Below are positions 5,465-56,611 of a stretch of DNA of 64,000 bases, piece after piece (within the stretch, counting starts at the first letter, position 1; each line of letters starts with the position of its first letter). This stretch comes from Fibrobacter sp. Lineage in GTDB: Bacteria; Fibrobacterota; Fibrobacteria; Fibrobacterales; Fibrobacteraceae. Position numbers and translations under genes: made by a program. The notes below the pieces were generated by a model that saw only the letters and a list, made by a program, of their open reading frames with translations, made no database searches and was not told the DNA's origin. Where the stretch lies: assembly GCA_017649565.1 (NCBI GenBank), contig JAGCGO010000066.1:1-64000 (forward strand), written 5' to 3'.

Positions 5465-7174
5465 TTATCGGCCTTCGCGGAGGCGGAAGGCGGCGCAGGC
5501 GATGTCCACTTCGCGCGGCAGACTCATCTCACGACTTAAGCCCTGCGGCAAGTTGCGGAATCCGACATTACGGATATTTTCGCACAGTTTGCCCGCAGCA
5601 GCCGAGACGCAGTCGCCATCCATGCTGTCGGCGTTGCTCGCCGCGTTCTGCAGAAGGTTCAAAAGCAAAAAGCCGGCGCCCAGGCGCTGCGACTTGTCCA
5701 CGAGCGTGTTGAGGCGCGAGGTGTCCGCGACGAGGAAGCCTATCTGCAGCAGGGAATCCCCGGAGAGCTTCACCTTCACCTGGCGCTCCACGGCGGAGGC
5801 GGGGCGTACGGACTTCTGCAGGGGCTGCATGTAGACCGCGAAGGCGCGGGGGGCGGGGAAAGAGGGAGGCAAGTTCGCTGAGCCTGCCGAAGCGGACTTG
5901 TCTGTTGCGTTCACTTCGGCAAGCTCAGTGAACTTTGCACATTCGGCTTTATAATTAGCCATGATAATGATGTTGTCGGCGAGGTCGAGGTAGTCGCCGC
6001 AGGCGCCCGCCACCAAAATAAAGCTGTATCCCGCCTGCGCAATTTCGCGGATGCGGTCGGTCAGCGGAATCAGAGGTTCGCGGTCGTCGCCCAGGAGCTT
6101 GCGGACGCGGATGTCGCGGATGAGGAAGTTCACCGCCGAGGAATCCTCGTCGATGAGGAACGTCCGCGAGCCCGCCTCGATGGCCTCGAGTAGGTTCGCG
6201 GCCTCGCTCGTAGAACCCGAGGCCGAAAGCGTAGTAAATTCCTTGGTACTCACGCCGCCCGGAAGGTCGCGCACGAACATCGAGAGGTCGGTAGCGCGCA
6301 CACTGCGCCCGTCCTCGACGCCGACGCGGAGCGCGGTCTCGTCCACGACGATTCCCTCGCGGCCGTCGCCCGGCACATGCGGGAACACGGAGCGCGTGAG
6401 CGCTTGCAGCAGCGTCGACTTTCCGTGGAAGGCGCCGCCCGTAATGACGGTGACGCCACGGGGGATTCCCATGCCGCGGATTTCGCGGCCGCAGACTTCA
6501 AGAGTCACCGCCATTTCCGGCGGCGCGACGAACGGCACCGCATCCTTGAGCGGAGCCTCGCTCAGGCCCGACGCCCGCGGCAGAACCGCCCCGTCGGGGA
6601 CAAACGCGCACAGGCCGCGGCCGTCCAGCTGTTCCAAAATCTCCTTGCGTTCGGCCAGAACACTGTAGTGCATCTCCAGTTGCCCGGCCCGTGCCGAATC
6701 GTTGTACAGGCTCGCCGAAACAAGGTCGGGCAGCACCATGGTCAAAATTTCGGCGGCGGCCTCCGACTCGATCTTGCGACCTTCGCCAGGAAGGCGCACT
6801 TGCAAGCAAACTCGCAGGTCCCCGTTGTCTACCCACAGGGAATTCCGCACCAGCATCTCAGGTCCCGGATTCTCGATGGCGACAGGCGCATTTTTCTCGG
6901 GAAAACGTTCCTGCACTACTGCGCTCAGACGACGCAGCAGAAAATCCGACAAGGCAAGGCGACGCTCGAAGGAGCTTCCCCATACAGGAGTGTACCCGAG
7001 TTTCTGCAAACTCGCCTTCAGCAGTACCCTAGATGCGGGGGCAAAGGGGTCACCCTGCACATGCAGGAATTCCAGTACAAAGTCACCAAAATCCCAAGAC
7101 TTTTCGGCAAGGGACTTGTACAGACCGTAATTTTTTCCGTTCAGGGCGCGAATTTTTTGGTAAAGAGCCTTCAT
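5465..7174 (-). CDS. Predicted ABC-class P-loop ATPase (PF09818-like)
   Basis: A 569-residue soluble ATPase of the 'predicted ATPase of the ABC class' family, whose cellular role is not established. The Walker A motif is GGAFHGKSTLLQAL (about residue 245) and the Walker B region is TFLIDEDSSAVNFLIRD (about 340), both characteristic of the family. The length matches the family. The stretch from about residue 415 to 435 (FTELAEV ... SAGSANL) is encoded by two inverted copies of a palindromic repeat (5873-5933) and looks like an in-frame insertion into a linker. First gene of the four-gene leftward operon. No Shine-Dalgarno precedes the ATG, and a heptanucleotide repeat array starts 20 bases upstream. 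Confidence 0.85.
   Translation of the reverse strand: MKALYQKIRALNGKNYGLYKSLAEKSWDFGDFVLEFLHVQGDPFAPASRVLLKASLQKLGYTPVWGSSFERRLALSDFLLRRLSAVVQERFPEKNAPVAIENPGPEMLVRNSLWVDNGDLRVCLQVRLPGEGRKIESEAAAEILTMVLPDLVSASLYNDSARAGQLEMHYSVLAERKEILEQLDGRGLCAFVPDGAVLPRASGLSEAPLKDAVPFVAPPEMAVTLEVCGREIRGMGIPRGVTVITGGAFHGKSTLLQALTRSVFPHVPGDGREGIVVDETALRVGVEDGRSVRATDLSMFVRDLPGGVSTKEFTTLSASGSTSEAANLLEAIEAGSRTFLIDEDSSAVNFLIRDIRVRKLLGDDREPLIPLTDRIREIAQAGYSFILVAGACGDYLDLADNIIIMANYKAECAKFTELAEVNATDKSASAGSANLPPSFPAPRAFAVYMQPLQKSVRPASAVERQVKVKLSGDSLLQIGFLVADTSRLNTLVDKSQRLGAGFLLLNLLQNAASNADSMDGDCVSAAAGKLCENIRNVGFRNLPQGLSREMSLPREVDIACAAFRLREGR
5873..5933. repeat. Inverted pair of REP-like palindromes inside a gene
   Basis: Copy 1 (5873-5897) and copy 2 (5909-5933) are 25-bp imperfect palindromes with the core TGAGCNTGCCGAAG, in opposite orientation and 11 bp apart; one is the reverse complement of the other at about 21 of 25 positions. 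Both are translated in frame in the ABC-class ATPase gene. A shorter relative lies in parB at 48637-48655. Confidence 0.7.
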
Positions 7175-7193
7175 GAAGAGGAAGATAGTAATT

Positions 7194-7326
7194 AGTGGTT
7201 AGGGGTTAGGATCTAGAGGCTAGGATCTAGGGGGGGGATGTTAGACGAGAGACGAGAGACGAGAGGGGAGAGGGGAGAGGGGAGAGATAGTGGTTAGTAA
7301 ACAGTAGGAGGTAGGAAGTAGGAAGA
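7194..7326. repeat. Heptanucleotide-phase repeat array 1
   Basis: Nineteen consecutive 7-bp words in one register fill this stretch between the ABC-class ATPase gene and the IS element. They include AGACGAG three times, AGGGGAG three times, AGGATCT twice, and single words such as AGTGGTT, AGGGGTT, AGGAGGT and AGGAAGT. Most begin with AG. No ORF or RNA is evident. From 7327 to 7378 the sequence is non-coding and ends in AAAAAAGGAGGTCCCCTCC, part of a palindrome broken by the IS. Confidence 0.85.
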
Positions 7327-7378: not shown

Positions 7379-7383
7379 CCCGC
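7379..7383. repeat. Target-site duplication, left (CCCGC)
   Basis: CCCGC directly before the left end of the IS element; identical to 8801-8805. Confidence 0.75.
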
Positions 7384-7416
7384 TGAACTGACCCCAAAAA
7401 GTTGGACATTTTAAAA

Positions 7417-8211
7417 TTAGGATAAAAATGAGTTGCAGACTCGGTATTGCACCGGGCTCATTCCTTTTAACCGCAGTTTTATGCGATTATTATTGTAGTA
7501 TTCGATATATTTCCTTAACTCCTGTTTAAAATGTTCCATGTTCTTGAATGTGTTCGGGTAAAGGAGTTCCGACTTCATTATCCCGAAAAAATTTTCCATC
7601 ATGGCATTGTCTAGGCAATTACCCCGGCGACTCATGCTTTGGATAATGCCGTGCTGCTTGAGAGACATTTGGTAGTTGTAGTGCTGGTAATGCCATCCTT
7701 GATCGGAATGCAACACCAGGCCTTTCTTTATATCCCTGGTTGCATAGGCTTTTTCCAACATCTTCATGACCATATTGAGGTTTGGCCGGTCAGATAAAGT
7801 ATAGCACACGATTTCTCCGTTGTACATGTCCAATATCGGCGACAGGTAACACCAGCTTCCGTTGATGTCTACCTGTGTCACATCGGTGGTCCATTTCTGG
7901 TTTGGCGCAGTAGCGCTGAAGTTCCTGTTCAATATGTTCTTGGCGACCAGTCCTGTCTCCCCTCGATAGGAGTGGTACGAACAGCGCTTGCGAACATTTT
8001 TCAGGCATTCCTCTTTCATGAGTCTGTAGACAGTCTTGTGATTCACCTTGAACCCCTCGTTGCGAAGCTGCATCGTAATGCGACGATAACCGTACCGGCC
8101 TTTATTCTCCGCATGAACAGCCTTTATTCTCGCCCGTTCGGTTTCGTAGCGATCCGTTCTCTCTTGAATATGGTAATAGTAGGTAGAACGAGACAGACCG
8201 CTAGCTTTCAA
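7417..8211 (-). CDS. IS3-family transposase OrfB (DDE integrase domain)
   Basis: The catalytic part of the transposase, 264 residues from the first ATG. It carries an HTH_21-like start (SRSTYYYHIQERTDRYETERARIKAVHAENKGRYGYRRI) and the rve integrase core: WTTDVTQVDI with the first Asp, LHSDQGWHYQ with the second, and SRRGNCLDNAMMENFFGIMKSE with the Glu. The frame stays open upstream of this ATG to at least 8306 and is in the -1 phase relative to orfA, so the working protein is probably an OrfAB fusion made by frameshifting at the A7 run (8307-8313). Confidence 0.9.
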   Translation of the reverse strand: MKASGLSRSTYYYHIQERTDRYETERARIKAVHAENKGRYGYRRITMQLRNEGFKVNHKTVYRLMKEECLKNVRKRCSYHSYRGETGLVAKNILNRNFSATAPNQKWTTDVTQVDINGSWCYLSPILDMYNGEIVCYTLSDRPNLNMVMKMLEKAYATRDIKKGLVLHSDQGWHYQHYNYQMSLKQHGIIQSMSRRGNCLDNAMMENFFGIMKSELLYPNTFKNMEHFKQELRKYIEYYNNNRIKLRLKGMSPVQYRVCNSFLS

Positions 8212-8237
8212 CAGGTGTCTTAAGGCATGCTCGGAGC

Positions 8238-8759
8238 TCAGTCTTCGGACGATTTCGGCCCTACACCGAACATCCTGGTACTTTCTTCTTGGTCTAGGGC
8301 CTTCAATTTTTTTAAGTAGGCGACCTCTGCTTTAAGGTACTGGTTCTCCTCCCTGAGCAGTTCGAGTTCGGTCATCCCGTCACGTTTTTTCTTCGGTCTT
8401 GGCATCCTTGGTTGGCCCCTTTGAGGCTTTTTGTCTTTAAGATTGTCATAGCCGCCTTGTCGAAATTTTTTCAGCCAATCTTTGAGCGTATGTCTGCTTA
8501 TTTCGAACTTGGCGCATGTTTCCACATAAGATAGCGATTTCTTTATGACCGAATCAACCGCGGCCTTTCTTGTTTTCCAATCTGTAGGACGCCCTATGCG
8601 GGGCTTGACTTGGAATATGCCGGTAAGATGATACATCCGGCACCTATGCTTGACGTCTCGCTCTGAAAGACCCACAATTCTTGATATGGACCTAGGATTT
8701 ACGCCTTCCTTGCATAAATCAAAGGCTTTTTGCCATTCAGCTTCTTTATAGTGATTCAT
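8238..8759 (-). CDS. IS3-family transposase OrfA (helix-turn-helix)
   Basis: A 173-residue DNA-binding subunit. Two helix-turn-helix-like segments are visible (NPRSISRIVGLSERDVKHRCR and SYVETCAKFEISRHTLKDWLKKFRQGGYDNL). A basic Pro-rich linker and a leucine-zipper-like coiled coil follow (MTELELLREENQYLKAEVAYLKKLKAL), as is usual for IS3 OrfA. It starts 25 bases inside the right end of the element. Confidence 0.9.
   Translation of the reverse strand: MNHYKEAEWQKAFDLCKEGVNPRSISRIVGLSERDVKHRCRMYHLTGIFQVKPRIGRPTDWKTRKAAVDSVIKKSLSYVETCAKFEISRHTLKDWLKKFRQGGYDNLKDKKPQRGQPRMPRPKKKRDGMTELELLREENQYLKAEVAYLKKLKALDQEESTRMFGVGPKSSED
8307..8313 (-). promoter_or_regulatory. Probable -1 frameshift heptamer of the IS (A AAA AAA)
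   Basis: On the minus strand orfA reads TTA AAA AAA TTG. The A AAA AAA heptamer is in the phase required for a -1 slip, and the -1 frame is open from there through orfB. IS3-family elements commonly make OrfAB by such slippage on A-rich heptamers. Confidence 0.65.
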
Positions 8760-8800
8760 AAATCCTCAAAAGTTGTGTCCAACTTTTGGGGTTCACATCA

Positions 8801-9611: not shown

Positions 9612-10220
9612 ATGTCCAAATTGTTCAAGGTCTGCCTGTTCGCATCCCTCGCCTTCTTCATCGGCTGCAGCGACAGCGGCAAGAAGGTCACCCGCATCGA
9701 CACGAATTCCGTGACCGATCTTTCCGGTGCCTGGAACGACACCGACTCCCGCCTCGTCGCCGAGGAAATGATCAACGACTGCCTGGGCCGTCCCTGGTAC
9801 GACAACATGATCCAGAACAAGGGCGGAGCCGTCCCAACCGTCGTCATCGGCAAGGTCGCGAACAAGAGCCACGAGCACATCAACATCGAAACCTTCATCA
9901 AGGACATGGAGCGCACGCTCATCAATTCCGGCCGTGTCGACTTCGTCGCGAACGCCCAGGAACGTGCTGAACTCCGCAACGAGCTCGCCAGCCAGGCCGG
10001 CAACGCTACGGCCGACACCCAGAAGCAGGCCGGTCAGGAAATCGGTGCCGACCTCATGCTCACGGGCACCATCACCTCTATCGTCGACCAGGAAGGCGGC
10101 GACCAGGTCGTGTACTACCAGGTCGACCTCGAGCTCACCGACATCCAGAGCCATCGCAAGGTCTGGATCGGCGACAAGAAGATCAAGAAGTTCATCTCCA
10201 AGAACGGCGTGAAGCTGTAA
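9612..10220 (+). CDS. LpoB-like penicillin-binding protein activator lipoprotein
   Basis: A 202-residue outer-membrane-type lipoprotein with lipobox FFIGC (Cys about residue 19). The body from about residue 70 has the LpoB family layout: VPTVVIGKVANKSHEHINIETFIKDMERTLINSG, then GADLMLTGTITS, and a final strand of the type VWIGDKKIKKFI. In enterobacteria LpoB stimulates the peptidoglycan synthase PBP1b; a similar role here is inferred. AGGAG stands six bases before the ATG. The COG3014-like lipoprotein gene follows after 38 bases, an association known from other genomes with LpoB homologues. Confidence 0.8.
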   Translation: MSKLFKVCLFASLAFFIGCSDSGKKVTRIDTNSVTDLSGAWNDTDSRLVAEEMINDCLGRPWYDNMIQNKGGAVPTVVIGKVANKSHEHINIETFIKDMERTLINSGRVDFVANAQERAELRNELASQAGNATADTQKQAGQEIGADLMLTGTITSIVDQEGGDQVVYYQVDLELTDIQSHRKVWIGDKKIKKFISKNGVKL

Positions 10221-10222
10221 TT

Positions 10223-10264
10223 GGTGATTAGTAGGAAGTTAGAAGTAGGAAGTAGGCAGTGGTT
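10223..10264. repeat. Heptanucleotide-phase array 2, overlapping a gene start
   Basis: Six 7-bp words in register, among them AGTAGGA twice, AGTTAGA, AGTAGGC and AGTGGTT. The array begins three bases after the LpoB-like gene stop and its last word contains the GTG start codon of the next gene. Confidence 0.75.
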
Positions 10265-29889: not shown

Positions 29890-30047
29890 AGACGAGAGGC
29901 TAGAGATGAGAGGCTAGAGGCTAGATATACGAAACTAGGTGCTTTAGCACCTTAGTTGTGTTATCCCATGAGGTTCGAGGTTCCAGGCTCGGTAGTCGAG
30001 ACTCCAGGTTCGAGGCTCGGGATGCGGGGGCCGGGGTCAGGATTACG
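29890..30047. repeat. Heptanucleotide-phase array 3 with palindrome
   Basis: Two blocks of 7-bp words fill the gap upstream of rng to the stop of the next gene. Block one (29890-29966) has AGACGAG, AGGCTAG three times and AGATGAG, then a module ATATACG AAACTAG GTGCTTT AGCACCT ... GTTATCC holding the palindrome GGTGCTTTAGCACC. Block two (29971-30047) has AGGTTCG and AGGCTCG twice each, AGGTTCC and AGACTCC. From 29749 to 29889 I see only the rng upstream region. Confidence 0.8.
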
Positions 30048-32535: not shown

Positions 32536-32584
32536 AGACGAGATATACGATACTTGGTGCTTTAGCAACATAGTAGAGTTATCC
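32536..32584. repeat. Heptanucleotide-phase array 4 (module shared with array 3)
   Basis: AGACGAG, ATATACG, ATACTTG, GTGCTTT, AGCAACA, TAGTAGA, GTTATCC follow each other in register. The module from ATATACG to GTTATCC matches 29925-29966 of array 3 word for word, with scattered changes. After it come the palindrome GCCCCTGCGGGGC (32599-32611) and another AGACGAG at 32615. Confidence 0.75.
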
Positions 32585-32651
32585 TCTATGAGGAGAACGC
32601 CCCTGCGGGGCTACAGACGAGAGGAGATGCCCAGTCAATCCGAGCATGACA

Positions 32652-38132: not shown

Positions 38133-38591
38133 ATGATGAAGGAACAACTCTTCAATTTGATTGGAAAACACCGATTCAATATTTCCATCTATACGAAGGA
38201 ATTGTTTGAAAGGCGTTGCCAGGAAGAAATTATCCGCAGCGACGAGGACAAGACCTCGTTCGTGTACCTCGAGTTCAACTTTGAACAGATCGCCCGCAAG
38301 CTCGGGAACGAAGACGACAACAGCAAGTTCTGGGAAATATTCCTGGAAGCCCTGGCCAAGAACAACAGGGGATGCGATATCATCGGATTTCTCGAGAACG
38401 AGGCCGGGTTGGGCATGTTGCTCCTCGATTCCAAGGTGGAAGGATGGATGCGAGTCAAGGGCCGTATCGAGCAGACCGCCAGCATAAACAACTTCCCCCA
38501 CGTGTCAAGCATCCTCTCGACCCTCGTGACTCCCATTGTCTATCCCTCCTGCATACAGGACTTGCAGCAAAAGGCGGCAGCGAATCCATGA
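38133..38591 (+). CDS. Unknown soluble protein, 152 residues
   Basis: A 152-residue soluble alpha/beta protein (MMKEQLFNLIGKHRFNISIY at the start) that I cannot place in a family. It has an acidic first half and no signal peptide or TM helix. Its stop overlaps the start of the glycosyltransferase gene (ATGA), so the two are translationally coupled and may act in the same process. Starts 28 bases from the divergent DUF4954 gene. Confidence 0.7.
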   Translation: MMKEQLFNLIGKHRFNISIYTKELFERRCQEEIIRSDEDKTSFVYLEFNFEQIARKLGNEDDNSKFWEIFLEALAKNNRGCDIIGFLENEAGLGMLLLDSKVEGWMRVKGRIEQTASINNFPHVSSILSTLVTPIVYPSCIQDLQQKAAANP

Positions 38592-39841
38592 AAGTTCTGG
38601 TCATCGGTTCCGTCTACCCCCGGTTCCAGGAAGACGCCGAAGTCCCCTGGCTCCGCACGTCCGTCGCACACCTCAAGCAGGCCGGCGTCGAAATCCAGGT
38701 ACTCGCCCCGGCATACAAGGGACTGCGAGACCACGAAATAGACGGCACCCCCGTACACCGTTTCCGCTACGCGCCGGCAAGCTGGGAAATCCTCACGCAC
38801 GAAGAAGGCGCCCCCTCCAAGATGGCAAGCAAGCCCTGGCTGCAGCTTCTCGCCATCCCCTACATCATAAACGGCTTTTTCAGGTGCCTTTCTATCTGCC
38901 GCAAGTGGAAGCCCGACGTAATCCATGCGCACTGGCCTTTCCCGCACGCCTATATCGCGCTCGGCGCATCGAAGCTGCTGCGCATCCCGCTGGTGCTGAA
39001 CTTCCACGGGGCCGAACTGTTGCTCATCCGCAAGAAGAAATGGGTGAAGCCGCTGCTGAAATTCGCCATTGGACAGGCACGCGCCGTGTTCGCGAACTCA
39101 AGCTTTACCGCAAGCAAGATCAAGGCCATCCGCAACGTAGACGTGGAATGGAGCCCGTATGGGACTACTTTAGACGAGAGACGAGAGACGAGAGACGAGA
39201 GAGAAGGCTCGAGGCTCGAGGCTCGAGGCACGGGAAACGAGAGAGAAGGCTCGGGGCTTGTTCCGCATCCGGTGGACGGCAAGTTCAAGATCCTCTTCGT
39301 AGGTAGGCACATCGAGCGCAAGGGAATCTGCTACCTGATCGAATCTGCCAAGATGCTGCCCGCCGACAAGTTCGAGATCCGTATCGTCGGCGTGGGCGAC
39401 CTTACCGAAAAGCTCAAGCAGCAGGCCCTGCAGTACCCGCACGTCGTGTTCACGGGCAAGCTTTCGCCGGAAGACCTCGCGCATGAATACCGCACCGCCA
39501 ACGTATTTGTCTTGCCCGCCATTGTCGACCACAAGGGAGACACCGAAGGCCTTGGCGTCGTGCTCATCGAGGCGATGGAACTCGGGCTGCCGGTTGTCGC
39601 AAGCAACGTGGGCGGAATCCCCGACGTCGTCGTCGACGGCGATTCCGGCATTCTCGTTCCCGAGAAGGACCCCGAGGCACTGGCCAACGCGTTCAAGCGC
39701 CTCGCCAGCGACCGCGCGCTCGTCATGAGCCTGCTCGAAGGCGCCCGCAAGCGCATTGCCGAATGCTTTACGTGGAACGGCATCATCAAGCGCCAGATAG
39801 AAGTTTATAACAAGGTCATCAACAGGCGGAAAGGCTCATAG
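38588..39841 (+). CDS. GT4-family glycosyltransferase with repeat-coded insertion
   Basis: A 417-residue GT-B glycosyltransferase of family 4, expected to transfer sugar from a nucleotide-sugar to a lipid-linked or surface glycan. The N-terminal domain opens with MKVLVIGSVYPRFQEDAEVPWLRTSVAHLKQAG and holds HAHWPFPHAYIA; the C-terminal domain has KILFVGRHIERKGICYLIESAK and the donor-binding EGLGVVLIEAMELGLPVVASNVGGIPDVV. Residues about 196-223 (DERRETRDEREGSRLEARG ...) are encoded by twelve 7-bp repeat words and sit in the linker between the domains, where relatives have only a short loop. The frame is intact, so the protein is probably functional. Confidence 0.85.
   Translation: MKVLVIGSVYPRFQEDAEVPWLRTSVAHLKQAGVEIQVLAPAYKGLRDHEIDGTPVHRFRYAPASWEILTHEEGAPSKMASKPWLQLLAIPYIINGFFRCLSICRKWKPDVIHAHWPFPHAYIALGASKLLRIPLVLNFHGAELLLIRKKKWVKPLLKFAIGQARAVFANSSFTASKIKAIRNVDVEWSPYGTTLDERRETRDEREGSRLEARGTGNEREGSGLVPHPVDGKFKILFVGRHIERKGICYLIESAKMLPADKFEIRIVGVGDLTEKLKQQALQYPHVVFTGKLSPEDLAHEYRTANVFVLPAIVDHKGDTEGLGVVLIEAMELGLPVVASNVGGIPDVVVDGDSGILVPEKDPEALANAFKRLASDRALVMSLLEGARKRIAECFTWNGIIKRQIEVYNKVINRRKGS
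39172..39255. repeat. Heptanucleotide-phase array 6, inside a glycosyltransferase gene
   Basis: Twelve 7-bp words in one register: AGACGAG four times, AGAGAAG twice, GCTCGAG three times, GCACGGG, AAACGAG and GCTCGGG. The total of 84 bp is a multiple of 3, so the reading frame is kept. Confidence 0.85.
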
Positions 39842-39877: not shown

Positions 39878-41335
39878 ATGTTATCGCGTTCCAGACTCTT
39901 ATCCATTATGCTTGCTGCCTGGGCAGCCTTCACGTTCTCCTTTACGGCCTGTTCCGGCGAAGACGGTGCAGACGGCGTTGCCGGCAAGGACGCCGAGGAA
40001 GTCAATGTCGACTCTCTCGCCAAGGCCATACGCACGAAGGTCACCAAGGATACCAAGAAAGTCGATGTCGACTCCCTCGCCGATGCCATACGCTCGGAAG
40101 TCACGAAGACCCTTTGGGACAGCCTCTATGCCGAGCCCTACGTGGACACGATCTACAATATCCTCTTCGACAATACCTACGCCGACAAGTGGATGGACTC
40201 CGTACGCGAAGCACTGGTCGACAGCCTGAAGGATGCCGACTACGACTCGCTCTACAAGGTACTCTACGACAGCATCTACAACGATATCTATATGCAGCAC
40301 GCCATCCGGACGCTCGACGCTGCCGTACTGCTTTCCAAGGACGATATCTACGGTGCTTTCGCGAACCAGTACTCGCTCATGTACAAGGACTTCAAGGGCT
40401 CGAAAGGGGAACTCCTTCCGGTACCGGTCGGCATAACGGCACGCAACACCTGCGACAAAAAGAGCAACGTTCCCTGCCGCTGGAAAAAGGTCACCCTAAA
40501 AGCCTGGATAGATGGCGCCACCGACACGAGCGTAACAACGGAATTCGTGAACCCCGACACCTCCATAACCCTCGGCGCCTCGCTGAAGTTCGACAACGAC
40601 TACCTGCTCAACCTGACCGCTCCCCAGCAGGAACAGATCCAGATACGCGCCTACGCTCTCGAGAACGACCGCGAAATCCTCTTCTTCTCGGAATCCAGGC
40701 CCACGAGAGTCCATCCCATGCAAATTAACGGCGGCGAATACAAGGGCGTCGAGAATCGCCACTGGTGGTACGGAGTCTGGGTCACGCCGAACATGGACTC
40801 CATTTCTACCATCCTGGACGAAGTCGCCAAGAAGCTCCCCGACGGAACGCTCAAGGTCTACCAGCAATACGGTGATGACGAATCGATAGCCGCAAGCTCG
40901 TCACGTGTGGTAGAAGCGGTATTCGATGTCCTGAAAAAACGCAACATCAAGTATATCGAAAACGACGGTGCCGGTTCTGTCGGCCAGAAGATAAACTACC
41001 CCATCGAAGTACTGCGTTCCAAGCAGGCTGTCTGCAACGAGTTCTCGCTGCTCTTCGCATCGGTTCTTGAAGCCATCGGTTTCCAGACCGCGCTCATTAT
41101 CATCCCCGACCACATGTTTGTCGGCTGGTATCCTGAAAGGGACGGCAAATACCTTGACGTCGTCGAAACGACGCTGCTCAACAGTAAGGAATCTACTTTC
41201 CAGCTCGCGAACGAGGCTGCCATAGAAACATTTACGCAAGAAGTCACGGCCGAGGCCCAACAGTCCGGAGACGCCGAAGTCATCTTGATAGACGATGTCC
41301 GCAACTTCGGCATCATGCCTAACGACATCCCGTAA
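39878..41335 (+). CDS. Lipoprotein with transglutaminase-like domain
   Basis: A 485-residue lipoprotein, lipobox in FTFSFTAC (Cys about 25), then a short collagen-like GEDGADGVAGKD stretch. Residues about 40-145 repeat a helical pattern around DSL (VDVDSLADAIRSEVTK, YVDTIYNILF, DYDSLYKVLYDSIY), probably a stalk. A beta domain follows and then a transglutaminase-like core (about 350-440) with Cys in KQAVCNEFSLLFASVLEAIGF, His in DHMFVGWY and Asp in GKYLDVVET, giving the full Cys-His-Asp triad. These enzymes cleave or crosslink peptides; the target is unknown. AAAGGAG seven bases before ATG 39878 decides the start over an ATG 33 bases upstream. Confidence 0.8.
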   Translation: MLSRSRLLSIMLAAWAAFTFSFTACSGEDGADGVAGKDAEEVNVDSLAKAIRTKVTKDTKKVDVDSLADAIRSEVTKTLWDSLYAEPYVDTIYNILFDNTYADKWMDSVREALVDSLKDADYDSLYKVLYDSIYNDIYMQHAIRTLDAAVLLSKDDIYGAFANQYSLMYKDFKGSKGELLPVPVGITARNTCDKKSNVPCRWKKVTLKAWIDGATDTSVTTEFVNPDTSITLGASLKFDNDYLLNLTAPQQEQIQIRAYALENDREILFFSESRPTRVHPMQINGGEYKGVENRHWWYGVWVTPNMDSISTILDEVAKKLPDGTLKVYQQYGDDESIAASSSRVVEAVFDVLKKRNIKYIENDGAGSVGQKINYPIEVLRSKQAVCNEFSLLFASVLEAIGFQTALIIIPDHMFVGWYPERDGKYLDVVETTLLNSKESTFQLANEAAIETFTQEVTAEAQQSGDAEVILIDDVRNFGIMPNDIP

Positions 41336-49477: not shown

Positions 49478-50263
49478 TTATTTTTCCTTGTTCAGGATTT
49501 CTTCGGCGAGTTTCATGTAGGCCTGCGAGCCGCTGCTCTGCACGTCGTACAGGATGACCGGCTTGCCGTGGGACGGGGCCTCGCTCAACTTGACGTTGCG
49601 CGGGATGACCGACTGGAACACCGTATCGGAAAGGTTCTCGCGAACTTCCTCGGCGACCTGCTTGCAGAGACTCAGGCGGGCGTCGTACATGGTGAGCAGC
49701 GTTCCCTCGATCTTGAGGTCGCCATTCAGGTTCTTCTGCACTTCGCGGATTGTCTTGAAAAGTTCGGTCATACCCTGCAGGGCGTAGTATTCGCACTGCA
49801 CCGGGATGAGCACGCTGGTGGCGGCGGTCAGCACGTTGAGCGTGAGGAGGTTCAGGCTCGGGGGCGCGTCGATGATGATGAACTCGAATGCCTGCTTGAG
49901 GATGTTGATAACTCTTTCGAGACGGCGTTCACGGCTCATGGCGTTCACGAGCTCGATTTCCATCACGGCCAGGTCCGGTCCGGACGGGATGAGCTTCAGG
50001 AAATCCAGCGGCGTGTCGAGAATGGCAGGCTTGATGGTTTCGTAGCTGAGGTTGTCGGGATTGCCGGCCAGGTTCAGGACTTCGTGGATATCTTCGTCCT
50101 GCGCCTCGTTGAAACCGAGACCCTGGGAAGCGTTGCCCTGAGGGTCCATGTCGATAAGAAGGGTCTTCTTTTCGAGAGCGGCAAAACTTGCGGCCAGGTT
50201 CACGGCCGTCGTGGTCTTGCCCACGCCGCCCTTCTGGTTACAGATCGCTATTACTTTACTCAT
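49478..50263 (-). CDS. parA: Chromosome partitioning ATPase ParA
   Basis: A 261-residue ParA/Soj ATPase that drives separation of ParB-parS complexes. Deviant Walker A is QKGGVGKTTTAVNLAA (residues 10-25), Walker A' LLIDMDPQGNASQGLG, and Walker B FIIIDAPPSLNLLTLN. It overlaps rsmG by four bases and precedes parB by 64 bases, where TTTATATATTAATC may give parB an extra promoter. Confidence 0.96.
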   Translation of the reverse strand: MSKVIAICNQKGGVGKTTTAVNLAASFAALEKKTLLIDMDPQGNASQGLGFNEAQDEDIHEVLNLAGNPDNLSYETIKPAILDTPLDFLKLIPSGPDLAVMEIELVNAMSRERRLERVINILKQAFEFIIIDAPPSLNLLTLNVLTAATSVLIPVQCEYYALQGMTELFKTIREVQKNLNGDLKIEGTLLTMYDARLSLCKQVAEEVRENLSDTVFQSVIPRNVKLSEAPSHGKPVILYDVQSSGSQAYMKLAEEILNKEK

Positions 50264-50994
50264 TCGTTACCTCGAGTGACTAAGGCGTAAACTTGTTCTT
50301 CTTGGGGTAGTGCATATTTATATATGTGTACCGCCGGGTCGTTTTCCAAGTGAACGATATTGTTGAAACTTTTTAGGGTGAGGAACGTCCCGCCCTTCTT
50401 GAGTCCGGGTTGGGCACGTTCCCAGTCGTTTTCGAAAGTCGAGAGGGCGCGGCAGCTGATAAAGTCCAGGTCCGAAAGGCCGGAGGTCTCGAAGCGCTTG
50501 CCCACGACAGTCAGGTTTTGGAGTTGGAGCTTTTCCTTGGCGTAGTTCATGAACTGCACGCGCATGTTGCGGGGCTCGACCGCATAAAACTGGATTTCGG
50601 GCATCACGATGGCGAGCGGGAAAACCGGACAACCCGCACCCGCACCCATATCAGCCCAGCGTTTAGACGAGAGACGAGAGACGAGAGACGAGAGATTGTT
50701 TGAGGGTAAACCATTATTGGACGATGATTTTTCCCTCTCGTCTTTCGTCTGTAGGACCGCAGGTCCGTTCTCTCGTCTAATATATATATAGGGTACCAAC
50801 GAGTCGGCGATGTGGCGGCTGAGGATTTTTTCGGAATCTTTCGTCGAAATCAGGTTGCCGAACTGCTTGGTCTCCACTACCAAATCGGCATACAGGTAGA
50901 GCCGTTCAGTCGTCTCCTTGGACAGCTGTACGCCTTTCTCTGACAAAAATTGACAGAATATTTCCTGTTGCCTGGTATCTTCCGATGGTCTCAT
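50260..50994 (-). CDS. rsmG: 16S rRNA methyltransferase RsmG with repeat-coded insertion
   Basis: A 244-residue RsmG (GidB), which makes m7G527 in 16S rRNA. The N-terminal part has the HIADSLVP motif and the SAM-binding motif WADMGAGAGCPVFPLAI, followed by EPRNMRVQFMNYAKEKL and DFISCRALSTF. Between the two motifs, residues about 74-110 (IYIRRENGPAVLQTKDEREK ... LSSLVSRLSSK) are encoded by a heptad repeat array in place of the usual short loop. The frame is intact; E. coli RsmG has 207 residues. A parS-type site lies seven bases before the ATG, with no Shine-Dalgarno. First gene of rsmG-parA-parB. Confidence 0.93.
   Translation of the reverse strand: MRPSEDTRQQEIFCQFLSEKGVQLSKETTERLYLYADLVVETKQFGNLISTKDSEKILSRHIADSLVPYIYIRRENGPAVLQTKDEREKSSSNNGLPSNNLSSLVSRLSSKRWADMGAGAGCPVFPLAIVMPEIQFYAVEPRNMRVQFMNYAKEKLQLQNLTVVGKRFETSGLSDLDFISCRALSTFENDWERAQPGLKKGGTFLTLKSFNNIVHLENDPAVHIYKYALPQEEQVYALVTRGNE
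50665..50776. repeat. Heptanucleotide-phase array 7, inside rsmG, with inverted ends
   Basis: Sixteen 7-bp steps in one register. The left end has AGACGAG four times; the right end has CTCTCGT, CTTTCGT and CTCTCGT, near-complementary to the left words. The perfect palindrome GGACCGCAGGTCC (50754-50766) lies near the right end. The middle is unrelated sequence but keeps the phase. Confidence 0.8.
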
Positions 50995-52125: not shown

Positions 52126-52902
52126 TTACCTGTTCACTTTTATAATATGTTCGCCTTTGGCGGGGCGGCCGAGGAGGTCAAACTTTTTAACCTTTTCGGG
52201 AATGATTGCCGGGCGGATTTTGCTGTGGATTGATGTGGTGGAAACACCATTGCGCGGAACCATATAATATATCATGACCTTGTTGTCCAGCCCTTCCTCA
52301 ATATAGGTTTTGCTGACGGTAATCCTTCCATCCTGGTTGGAGGTTTCGAAACGGTCCCATGTTGTCCAGGTGCCGTCGTAGTATTCTTTTTGGTAGCAGG
52401 TGTTTGTATCCGTTTCGTCCATGACAATGATCTGGTCTTCGGAGGACCTGAAGATGGTATCGTTTTTCAAGACGTAGATGCTGGTATATTCGCCGTCTTC
52501 GTCAGTTGTAGTGACAGCGAGTGAATCCCCGTCAAAGTAGATGATATCTTTTATTTCTTCTTCGCCCGATGTTCCTATTATTGTCCAGACATTTCCTTCA
52601 TGGGTGATATTGATATTCACGCTGTATTTTTTATCGCGGTATTCCCATTCCCCGTCGCGGTAGTCGCCTTCGTGTACGCTGTCGAGAATACCGTCTTTAT
52701 AGTAGCCCTTCCAAGTGTAGATACGTTCACCCCTGTTGTTGGCAGTACCCTTGTCCACGTACATGCTGTCCAGAACGAAGTCGCTATAATCTTTATCGTG
52801 CATAAGGTATTCATATCTCTGGAATTCGAAAATCGTCTTGAGGCAGTTTGCGGAAGCCAGGGAGAAAAAAGTCAGAGCGAGAATAAGGATAATCTTTTTC
52901 AT
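52126..52902 (-). CDS. Secreted protein with C-terminal sorting-like tag (paralogue 2)
   Basis: A 258-residue exported protein, signal MKKIILILALTFFSLASA. The middle is Tyr/Asp-rich beta-type sequence of unknown role. The C-terminal SIHSKIRPAIIPEKVKKFDL and LGRPAKGEHIIKV match paralogue 1 almost word for word, while the middles have diverged. Seven bases from paralogue 1; probably one transcript. CTATATTTCCGACT directly precedes the ATG without a Shine-Dalgarno, so the mRNA may be leaderless. Confidence 0.7.
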   Translation of the reverse strand: MKKIILILALTFFSLASANCLKTIFEFQRYEYLMHDKDYSDFVLDSMYVDKGTANNRGERIYTWKGYYKDGILDSVHEGDYRDGEWEYRDKKYSVNINITHEGNVWTIIGTSGEEEIKDIIYFDGDSLAVTTTDEDGEYTSIYVLKNDTIFRSSEDQIIVMDETDTNTCYQKEYYDGTWTTWDRFETSNQDGRITVSKTYIEEGLDNKVMIYYMVPRNGVSTTSIHSKIRPAIIPEKVKKFDLLGRPAKGEHIIKVNR

Positions 52903-52932
52903 AGTCGGAAATATAGTAAAGGGTTTATCGTT

Positions 52933-52948
52933 TGTTTCACGTGGAACA
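52933..52948. promoter_or_regulatory. parS: parS-type site 3
   Basis: TGTTTCACGTGGAACA, one change from the consensus, about 30 bp upstream of paralogue 2. Confidence 0.85.
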
Positions 52949-52996
52949 ATTTGTTTTCCTTGCCGAAGGGACCGGGCGTCTCATTTTGTTATGAGG

Positions 52997-53057
52997 AGAC
53001 GAGAGACGAGACGAGAGACGAGAGAGGGCAATGGGGCCTCGAACCTCGAACCTCACC
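52997..53057. repeat. Heptanucleotide-phase array 8
   Basis: AGACGAG twice, a 5-base slip, AGACGAG again, AGAGGGC, AATGGGG, then CCTCGAA twice and CCTCACC. It runs into the stop codon of the following leftward gene at 53053. Confidence 0.7.
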
Positions 53058-53784
53058 GCTTCCTATAATATATAGTGGTATACTTGTCGCCGCCGTCGCA
53101 GGGGCCGGGTGCCTTGACATACCTGTTGCGGTTCGGTTCGAATATGTTCTGGATGAGGAAGTCTCCCCTGGTTTCGTATTCATATGTAGTGTATATTTCC
53201 TCGCCTACCTTCAGGACACTTCCGTTGCCGAACTTCTTTTCTTTTCTGTTCGCCCGGTAGCACTTGTTTTCGTCTTTGGGATCGCGGTATATAATCCAGT
53301 TTCTGGGAATCCCGTTGTCCAGTTCATGGATAGTGTCGTTCTTGATGTAGAACGTATAGTGCCGATCGGGATCTTCGTTTCGAACGATGTCGACGGAATC
53401 CTTCCCGCGGTAGACGGTGAAGTTCATGTAGGCGTTTTCCGGAGGGAAAGTCCAGGTATATTTTTTGAGCTTGCCTACCTTGGCGGAATCCACCTTCCAG
53501 TTTGGGACTATGGTCGCCTTGCTTCCCTTGTCGAGGCAGGAATGCGTGAAAGTCAAGTTGTCGAGGTGGTTCCCGTTCCAGTGGTACTTGATGGTATAGG
53601 TTAGAGATTTTTCCTGTTGGTGCAGACTGTCCGGTTTCAGGCTGCCGGGGAGGATGTATGTTCTTATATCATCGTCCGGCATGTATTGCGTGGCGAAATA
53701 CTCGAAGGTCTCGCGGACGCAGTCGACCGCATGTGCATTCAGAACGGCTAAGGTGAGAATGAGAAAAGGTTTCATGTGAAACAT
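53053..53784 (-). CDS. Secreted protein related in layout to paralogues 1 and 2
   Basis: A 243-residue exported protein; MFHMKPFLILTLAVLNAHA is the signal peptide. The opening VDCVRETFEYFATQYM recalls NCLKTIFEFQRYEYLM of paralogue 2, so they are probably related, but the C-terminal tag is missing: the gene ends in YTTIYYRKR at the edge of repeat array 8, which may have cut off an original end. The start codon lies in a degenerate parS-like sequence (ATGTTTCACATGAAACC on the minus strand); the second ATG (53775) is an alternative start. Confidence 0.65.
   Translation of the reverse strand: MFHMKPFLILTLAVLNAHAVDCVRETFEYFATQYMPDDDIRTYILPGSLKPDSLHQQEKSLTYTIKYHWNGNHLDNLTFTHSCLDKGSKATIVPNWKVDSAKVGKLKKYTWTFPPENAYMNFTVYRGKDSVDIVRNEDPDRHYTFYIKNDTIHELDNGIPRNWIIYRDPKDENKCYRANRKEKKFGNGSVLKVGEEIYTTYEYETRGDFLIQNIFEPNRNRYVKAPGPCDGGDKYTTIYYRKR
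53768..53783. promoter_or_regulatory. Degenerate parS-like site 4 overlapping a start codon
   Basis: GGTTTCATGTGAAACA: GTTTCA and TGAAAC arms intact, centre ATGT instead of ACGT. ParB binding is uncertain. Confidence 0.45.
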
Positions 53785-55993: not shown

Positions 55994-56512
55994 ATGATAG
56001 AGATTGAAGTTGTCCAGGGAGACATCACGAAGCTTGCAGTGGATGCCATCGTGAATGCGGCAAACTGTTCGCTGCTGGGTGGCGGCGGTGTCGACGGAGC
56101 GATCCACCGGGCGGCGGGTCCTGATTTGTTGAGGGCGTGCATCCCCCTGAACGGTTGCGAGACAGGTAAGGCCAAAATTACTCCGGGGTTCAAGCTTCCG
56201 GCGAAGTTCGTGATTCATACTCCGGGACCAGTCTATCGGGATGGCCAGCACGGTGAACCTGCGCTTTTGGAATCTTGCTACAAAAGTTGCCTCGCCCTTG
56301 CCGAAGAGAACGATTGCGAGACGGTCGCCTTCCCTGCCATCTCGACCGGCGTCTACGGCTACCCCTGGGAAGCGGCCACCGAGATTGCCGTAAGGACGGT
56401 CCGGAACTTCCCGGTGCAGAAAGTCAGGAAAGTCATCTTCTGCTGTTTCGGGGAAACACTATATAATATATATAGGGAAGCGGTGAGCTGTGAGGTTCAC
56501 CGCGACAATTAA
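55994..56512 (+). CDS. Macro-domain protein (ADP-ribose binding/hydrolase)
   Basis: A 172-residue stand-alone macro domain of the MacroD/YmdB type, which removes ADP-ribose or deacetylates O-acetyl-ADP-ribose. Conserved motifs are EVVQGDITKLAVDAIVNAAN, LLGGGGVDGAIHRAAGPDLL with the glycine loop, and AFPAISTGVYGYPWEAA. GGAGG precedes the ATG by four bases. The final residues are encoded up to the edge of repeat array 9. Confidence 0.93.
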   Translation: MIEIEVVQGDITKLAVDAIVNAANCSLLGGGGVDGAIHRAAGPDLLRACIPLNGCETGKAKITPGFKLPAKFVIHTPGPVYRDGQHGEPALLESCYKSCLALAEENDCETVAFPAISTGVYGYPWEAATEIAVRTVRNFPVQKVRKVIFCCFGETLYNIYREAVSCEVHRDN

Positions 56513-56513
56513 T

Positions 56514-56576
56514 CCTAACCCCTAGTCACTGTCTACCTCCTACTTCCTACTGTATACCAACCCCTAACCACTTTTT
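56514..56576. repeat. Heptanucleotide-phase array 9 (reverse orientation)
   Basis: Nine words in register, including CCTAACC twice, ACCTCCT, ACTTCCT, ACTGTCT and ACCAACC; these are reverse complements of array 1 words such as GGTTAGG and AGGAAGT. It begins directly after the macro-domain stop codon. Confidence 0.8.
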
Positions 56577-56611
56577 ATATATTTTCATCTAGTTCCATCA
56601 AGGAGATCAAC

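Follow-up and report, generated by a model that had tools for sequence, protein, structure and literature searches.

Mixed-word heptanucleotide arrays in Fibrobacter: possible arms of small, inward-facing repeat elements

The DNA analysed here (the window) is a 64,000-nucleotide stretch of contig JAGCGO010000066.1, designated C79 in a Fibrobacter genome (assembly GCA_017649565.1, hereafter G000) of 3.45 Mb, in 120 contigs, with a contamination of 6.1%. An array of tandem 7-bp words lies on its forward strand at 7186–7326, in an intergenic position 12 bp upstream of an ABC-ATPase gene (5465–7174, reverse strand). The array is written in several words: TAG-class words (7186–7231), three copies of AGACGAG (7243–7263), three copies of AGGGGAG and AGTAGGA-class words. 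The portion at 7194–7326 is exactly 133 bp, or 19 words, 16 of which begin with AG, and its self-identity is 0.67 at lag 7 and 0.61 at lag 14, compared to 0.22–0.36 at the remaining lags from 3 to 15. Among 5000 first-order shuffles of this portion, lag-7 identity had a mean of 0.352 (sd 0.051) and a maximum of 0.53, which shows that the array is real. An earlier note on this DNA described 19 words in one unbroken register. The length and the lag-7 signal agree with this description, but the word “unbroken” is partly flattering, since AGTAGGA, with AG at two positions, can be read in either of two phases. The TRF and lag-7 scans resolve two runs (7186–7231 and 7243–7325) with a weak joint between them (7232–7242). 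The more general rule that different words keep one phase was rejected, as the AG phase is kept at only four of nine word-class joints elsewhere (∼1.3 expected by chance). The orthologous site in two congeners, G008 and G013, holds a different mosaic. An IS3-family element (7380–8790; two open reading frames (ORFs), rve and HTH) adjoins the array in the same island; G008 and G013 lack it at this site and carry mosaic repeat sequence instead.

Heptad words of this kind recur across the genome and the genus, as the earlier note had proposed. At least seven 7-bp word classes were identified in Fibrobacter, among them AGACGAG, TAGRRNY, AGTAGRN, TGAGCNN and CGAGGYN. An unselected sample of ∼314 kb, from which two N-masked contigs that scored at every lag had been removed, yielded 18 lag-7 segments with a score of at least 14, and none at lags 4, 5, 8, 10, 13, 16 and 17. 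Three consecutive AGACGAG units, with up to 2 mismatches, matched 221 times in the genome, and the reversed pattern did not match at all. Word-class counts, controlled against the reversed sequence, were 11 for AGACGAR, 7 each for TAGRRNY and AGTAGRN and 0–2 for the others in G000 (all controls zero), compared to 36 for TAGRRNY (control 1), 21 for TGAGCNN and 11 for AGACGAR in the sister species G008. Thus, the dominant word differs between sister species.

The AGACGAG class has a near-fixed size. At the 47 exact loci with three or more units, counted from the match list, four units occur 35 times, three units 12 times, and five or more units never. A sample of 675 kb contains 20 runs with identical ends that are exactly 31 bp long, each consisting of four AGACGAG units followed by AGA, which we refer to as element A. 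This length is again the commonest among AGACGAG runs at other Fibrobacter loci (35 runs), where a few reach 53–83 bp. In having tandem 7-bp units above chance, the arrays resemble heptanucleotide simple-sequence repeats (SSRs) and short tandemly repeated repetitive (STRR) sequences, and ordinary SSR growth, by local slippage or unequal crossing-over with a length of 7 favored by the polymerase footprint (an idea cited in PMC4692102), could in principle have made them. TAG-class arrays conform to this expectation, with a decaying spread of 2–10 units. Slippage would give such a spread for AGACGAG as well, so the fixed size argues against it, and pure slippage was rejected for this class; a vocabulary common to unrelated loci is likewise difficult to reconcile with a local process. 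As an account of the whole family, we consider slippage unlikely. An origin in chance or assembly artefact is highly improbable. The analysis rests on partial stretches of a fragmented, mixed metagenome-assembled genome (MAG) that is 6% contaminated and has several contig ends inside arrays, but reversed-pattern controls are zero, the same arrays and modules are present in near-complete, low-contig congeners (G003, G004 and G008), and 31 bp is far below the read length.

Hairpins accompany the heptads. Element B (AGACGAGAGAACG-stem-loop-stem-CTACAGACGA) is present in 35 of the 41 Fibrobacter genomes compared (G000 and 40 congeners, one genome per species), and its reversed pattern gave no matches. 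Over 31 copies, 99.4% of stem cells are paired, and both sides of the stem vary with pairing kept; the covariation score is 0.689, compared to 0.139 ± 0.032 for shuffled copies, and lies far above that of slid registers. Stems that are perfect and yet drift could reflect either selection on structure or correction of hairpins by template switching. A minority class of B (CTCGCAAGCTCG and kin) does not pair. Most observed copies of a third hairpin, element C, are bordered by AGACGAG at one end or at both. Elsewhere in G000 (contig C27; stretch L229, 1653–3498), three A and three B elements lie within 1.9 kb, and the A elements there sit in ORFs conserved in G008, apparently genes of siroheme/haem synthesis as judged by eye.

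Neighboring elements face each other. All seven A/B neighbor pairs are convergent. Among lag-7 neighbors within 150 bp, oriented by G–C skew, 27 pairs are convergent, 1 is divergent and 20 run the same way, such that the purine-rich words of neighboring arrays point inward. For most island arrays, the nearer conserved DNA is that located 5′ of the purine strand (27/32, p = 1e-4, an optimistic value because arrays within one island are not fully independent). The inward rule is not universal, as the few pairs seen in Sorangium (2) were divergent. Exactly this polarity (27:1) and closeness on the 5′ side would be predicted if an internal template were used to add AG-rich heptads to the 3′ ends at DNA breaks, in a telomere-like or reverse-transcriptase-like manner, and the ends were then joined, leaving inward words around filler. 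AG-rich words such as TTAGGGG, a 31-bp product of template size and new filler at the same site would also fit. We nevertheless regard such break healing as improbable: it predicts neither hairpin B nor its conserved flanks, its many words would need many templates, and no enzyme or template for it was found. A broader form, in which heptad islands are scars of DNA-end extension by a fixed length per step, would unite the polarity in Fibrobacter with the convergent heptads of Xanthomonas as one unnamed, widespread repair or retro-synthesis activity; we consider it slightly more remote still.

Some arrays reside inside genes. Nine of 82 arrays fall within ORFs that are conserved on both sides, and all nine are of the AGACGAG class (9/36, compared to 0/46 for other words; p = 3e-4), although the sample was partly chosen around AGACGAG hits and one of the nine is doubtful. 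That one, an AGACGAG array followed by CCTCGAA words (52996–53054, forward strand), is probably intergenic, since the forward-strand ORF that covers it (52600–53604) lies opposite likely genes. AGACGAG, unlike the TAG words, is free of stop codons in all six frames and can, therefore, survive inside genes. Two arrays of the window are in frame within genes, which the earlier note did not remark upon. The first is a 31-bp element A (39172–39202, forward strand) in the interdomain linker of a GT4 glycosyltransferase gene (38372–39841, forward strand), where an AGGCTCG-class array (39205–39242, forward strand) continues in frame. The second is a 31-bp element A (50665–50695, forward strand) in rsmG (50260–50994, reverse strand); its inverted partner in the same gene, facing it, is an element B on the reverse strand (AGACGAGAGAACG-GACC-TGC-GGTC-CTACAGACGAAAGACGAG, 50737–50778).

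Across 29 Fibrobacter species, rsmG has a single insertion site, located just before the S-adenosylmethionine-binding motif WADMGAG, where the flanking anchors are separated by 14 to 63 residues. The site holds A/B, a GAGGTCGC hairpin, GTCATCCTGAGC, GTCATCCCCGCG, GTCATTGCGAG, GTCATTCTCGCG or a TGAGTTT heptad array, that is, at least seven repeat families, in frame in every copy; G035 and G029 have near-empty forms. RsmG is highly conserved outside this site. In the AlphaFold model, 180 of 244 residues score 90 or above and residues 78–99 score below 50, and the insert is thus predicted to be a disordered loop. A second rsmG, 74% identical to that of the window, is found in the same bin (G000:C13:2373-3071), which suggests a mixed MAG. 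The GT4 gene likewise accepts many families in frame at one site in its interdomain linker (∼29 species); linker residues 192–222 of the modeled protein have a predicted local distance difference test (pLDDT) score <50, in a model weaker than that of RsmG. Relatives without the glycosyltransferase array carry GAGACGGGGACGGGG at this site, a possible seed for growth by slippage. Downstream, a 60-bp tandem repeat (39985–40108; 2.1 copies, 81% match) lies inside a 496-residue ORF that follows the glycosyltransferase gene. At both sites, repeat-derived peptides have been swapped in and out of working enzymes across the genus, which offers a test bed for repeat spread and protein tolerance.

The content of these sites turns over rapidly between species. 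G000 and G008 are ∼90% identical, and nine A loci could be matched through their flanks. G008 lacks element A in the same form at all nine: seven have other words or hairpin cassettes, the rsmG locus has a variant of A/B that differs in sequence, and at the glycosyltransferase locus a single AGACGAG precedes other words. Among 33 unaligned islands between the two genomes, 19 contain a lag-7 array in one or both species, compared to 0–2 for lags 5, 8, 10, 11 and 13. In the closest pair compared (G013 and G030), the rsmG insert is fully replaced with the frame kept, within a gene whose flanking sequence is ∼96–98% identical. The earlier note had suggested exchange or mutation of units at constant length; instead, the content of a site is replaced wholesale between sister species, and the four islands that have arrays on each side of the comparison differ in length by 6, 4, 0 and 2 modulo 7. 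Slippage accounts for neither observation, nor for the inward polarity or the linked, covarying hairpin. The sole difference inside a gene that is a multiple of 7, 42 bp (6 units) in the glycosyltransferase, is what it would predict.

The remaining loci of the window show a similar mixture of words and hairpins. Among the recurrences listed in the earlier note, 10223, 29890, 39172, 50665, 52997 and 56514 are indeed lag-7 arrays, but 32536 is not an array and 32652 comprises only ∼2.5 units, which were unscored. An AGTAGGA-class array (10217–10260, forward strand) occupies a short gap between two codirectional genes, where G008 and G013 have other words. The lag-7 scan identified a mixed AGACGAG/AGGCTAG array at 29890–29925 and a second array, of the AGGTTCG/AGGCTCG class, at 29970–30041, both on the forward strand. 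Between them lies an element C (29923–29973, forward strand) consisting of the hairpin ACTAGGTGCTTTAGCACCTTAGT and the tail TTATCC..ATGAGG, other copies of which were found in stretches L231 and L233. The first of these arrays adjoins an Rfam Fibrobacter-1 RNA (RF02983; 29783–29884, reverse strand), upstream of the RNA start and near its likely promoter; this RNA was not found at eight other array-bearing loci, and the arrays themselves match no Rfam family. The 32536–32624 segment (forward strand), immediately following a terminator-like stem and a run of Ts, consists of a single AGACGAG followed by two hairpin elements, an element C and then a B-type hairpin (AGAACG-CCCC-TGC-GGGG-CTACAGACGA); the site in G008 has GAGC/GAGG words instead. 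An intergenic AGTAGGA/AGGGGTT-class array lies on the reverse strand at 56503–56585, and the sequence at its orthologous sites is different.

A search of 24 other genomes of the order, class and phylum found no AGACGAG arrays, which do occur in Rikenellaceae, Gemmatimonadetes, Sorangium, Kapabacteria and others. In one Rikenellaceae genome, 344 kb of stretches chosen around hits contain 114 lag-7 segments, with words such as AATTAAG, AAATGCA and AATTGAC and, again, many AGACGAG runs of 30–31 bp. A recurrent junction there (stretches L375–L394), AGACGAG..AGA followed by AATGCAA words, forms a composite two-word array. Element B was not found in these 344 kb, and identity of this module across phyla was rejected. 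Thus, heptads are widespread among bacteria, and Fibrobacter adds modules of its own. One viral contig (IMGVR_UViG_3300030051_000020; stretch L355) carries four AGACGAG units; spread by phage was rejected, as the four-unit word occurs in only this viral contig of the collection.

A four-unit size in Fibrobacter, in a Rikenellaceae genome and in Xanthomonas (PMC4692102) could indicate function. The arrays might be two-way transcription ends, giving AG-rich and then CU-rich RNA in both directions, binding sites for a protein that recognizes four heptads, or RNA stems that protect 3′ ends, and the covarying hairpin and inward polarity are consistent with such signals. However, signals of this type would not be expected in frame inside genes, nor to be missing as the same module from the same site in a sister species, nor to vary in copy number from none to ∼160 hits between congeners. 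This explanation therefore appears doubtful, to about the same degree as slippage.

Our preferred interpretation, held tentatively and at somewhat less than even probability, is that each array is an arm or a remnant of small, non-autonomous, inward-facing repeat elements that compose the fast-changing islands of Fibrobacter. An island would consist of purine-rich 7-bp words, hairpin cassettes and words of the first kind on the opposite strand, and would draw on several element families, each with its own word (AGACGAG, TAGRRNY, TGAGCNN, CGAGGYN, AGTAGRN and others). The 31-bp A and hairpin B modules would be copied as units to new places, where they replace or nest in older ones; gaps between genes and disordered loops of proteins would tolerate them. 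Mixed words in one 7-bp phase could arise within an arm by tandem duplication combined with point changes. Copying would then be a mobility process acting on whole modules, effected by a trans-acting enzyme or by template switching between copies, and selection alone may decide which sites survive. Small non-autonomous elements with arms of heptads agree better than slippage does with the size, the polarity, the modules held in common and the wholesale replacement.

Several observations weigh against these elements, in addition to the TAG-class spread. Neither the flanks nor the distribution of PF01797 in the 41 genomes tied a transposase to A or B: this Y1 transposase is present in only 12 genomes and absent from the B-rich G006, G013, G018 and G061, and the copy in G000 itself has no A or B alongside. 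Mobilization by a REP-associated tyrosine transposase (RAYT) was rejected on these grounds. No target-site duplications were noticed. The turnover comparisons are all between species, rather than between clean empty and filled sites of one species. Finally, the 30–31 bp AGACGAG size common to two unrelated phyla may reflect function instead of copying.

Comparison with known systems places the Fibrobacter repeats near several of them. Like phase-variable contingency loci, they include tandem repeats inside or next to genes; unlike them, the frame is kept in the rsmG and GT4 copies of all species examined, and no stepwise on/off change in length was seen among these species-level copies. Rickettsia palindromic elements (RPEs) are small palindromic repeats of several families, inserted in protein genes without disturbing the reading frame where insertion is tolerated. 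The in-frame insertions in rsmG and GT4 resemble them in behavior; they differ in that heptad arms prevail and a single site has accepted at least seven families across the genus. RPEs have been grouped with the CGTC-tagged class of repetitive extragenic palindromes (REPs), described together with the GTAG-tagged class in a survey that does not mention Fibrobacter (Di Nocera et al. 2013, PMC3733652). Element B has, on its other strand, GTAG followed by a 5-bp stem and a 3-nt loop (31 copies), and shares paired units and intragenic copies with REPs. However, it lacks a matching RAYT, its stem is highly variable whereas its flanks are constant, and heptads lie alongside.

Cyanobacterial STRR sequences, the only heptad repeats that the earlier note cited, are not alone: heptads are also reported from Xanthomonas, Nostoc, Beggiatoaceae and Bacteroidetes (PMC4692102, PMC4679880), and the AGACGAG arrays of other phyla described above are similar; a literature search found no earlier account for Fibrobacter, in agreement with that note. 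STRR and the TAACTGA repeats of Beggiatoaceae, Cyanobacteria and Bacteroidetes (MacGregor 2015, PMC4679880) are similarly short, intergenic arrays of 7-bp direct repeats with a patchy distribution over phyla and mixed heptamers in some Bacteroidetes. The main-genome TAACTGA sets lie mostly just upstream of start codons, with one dominant word, and the part of that account consulted describes no inward pairs or hairpin partner, unlike in Fibrobacter.

The GGGAATC and GGGGA(C/T)T heptameric repeats of Xanthomonas and Nostoc (Rehm et al. 2015, PMC4692102) are mostly intergenic (7–11% intragenic), have variable positions within the word, four units as the commonest size, close convergent pairs and a nearer 5′ neighbor, and occupy the same sites with different content in related species. 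Fibrobacter shares the four-unit preference (35/47 AGACGAG loci; 20 runs of 31 bp), the convergent close pairs (27 compared to 1 divergent), the variable word positions, the closeness to the 5′ neighbor and the same-site replacement. In contrast, AGACGAG has no run of three Gs, which only some TAG and AGGGGAG words possess. A quadruplex function was rejected for this main word, and since the four-unit preference holds in a word unable to form a quadruplex, the quadruplex explanation given for Xanthomonas is not general. Fibrobacter also differs in that one genome carries several word classes, hairpin modules are linked to the heptads, and repeats lie in frame in rsmG across the genus. Over-representation of heptamers in bacteria has been noted before without a mechanism, and Fibrobacter offers a multi-word system with a fixed-size module, a covarying hairpin and a clear polarity.
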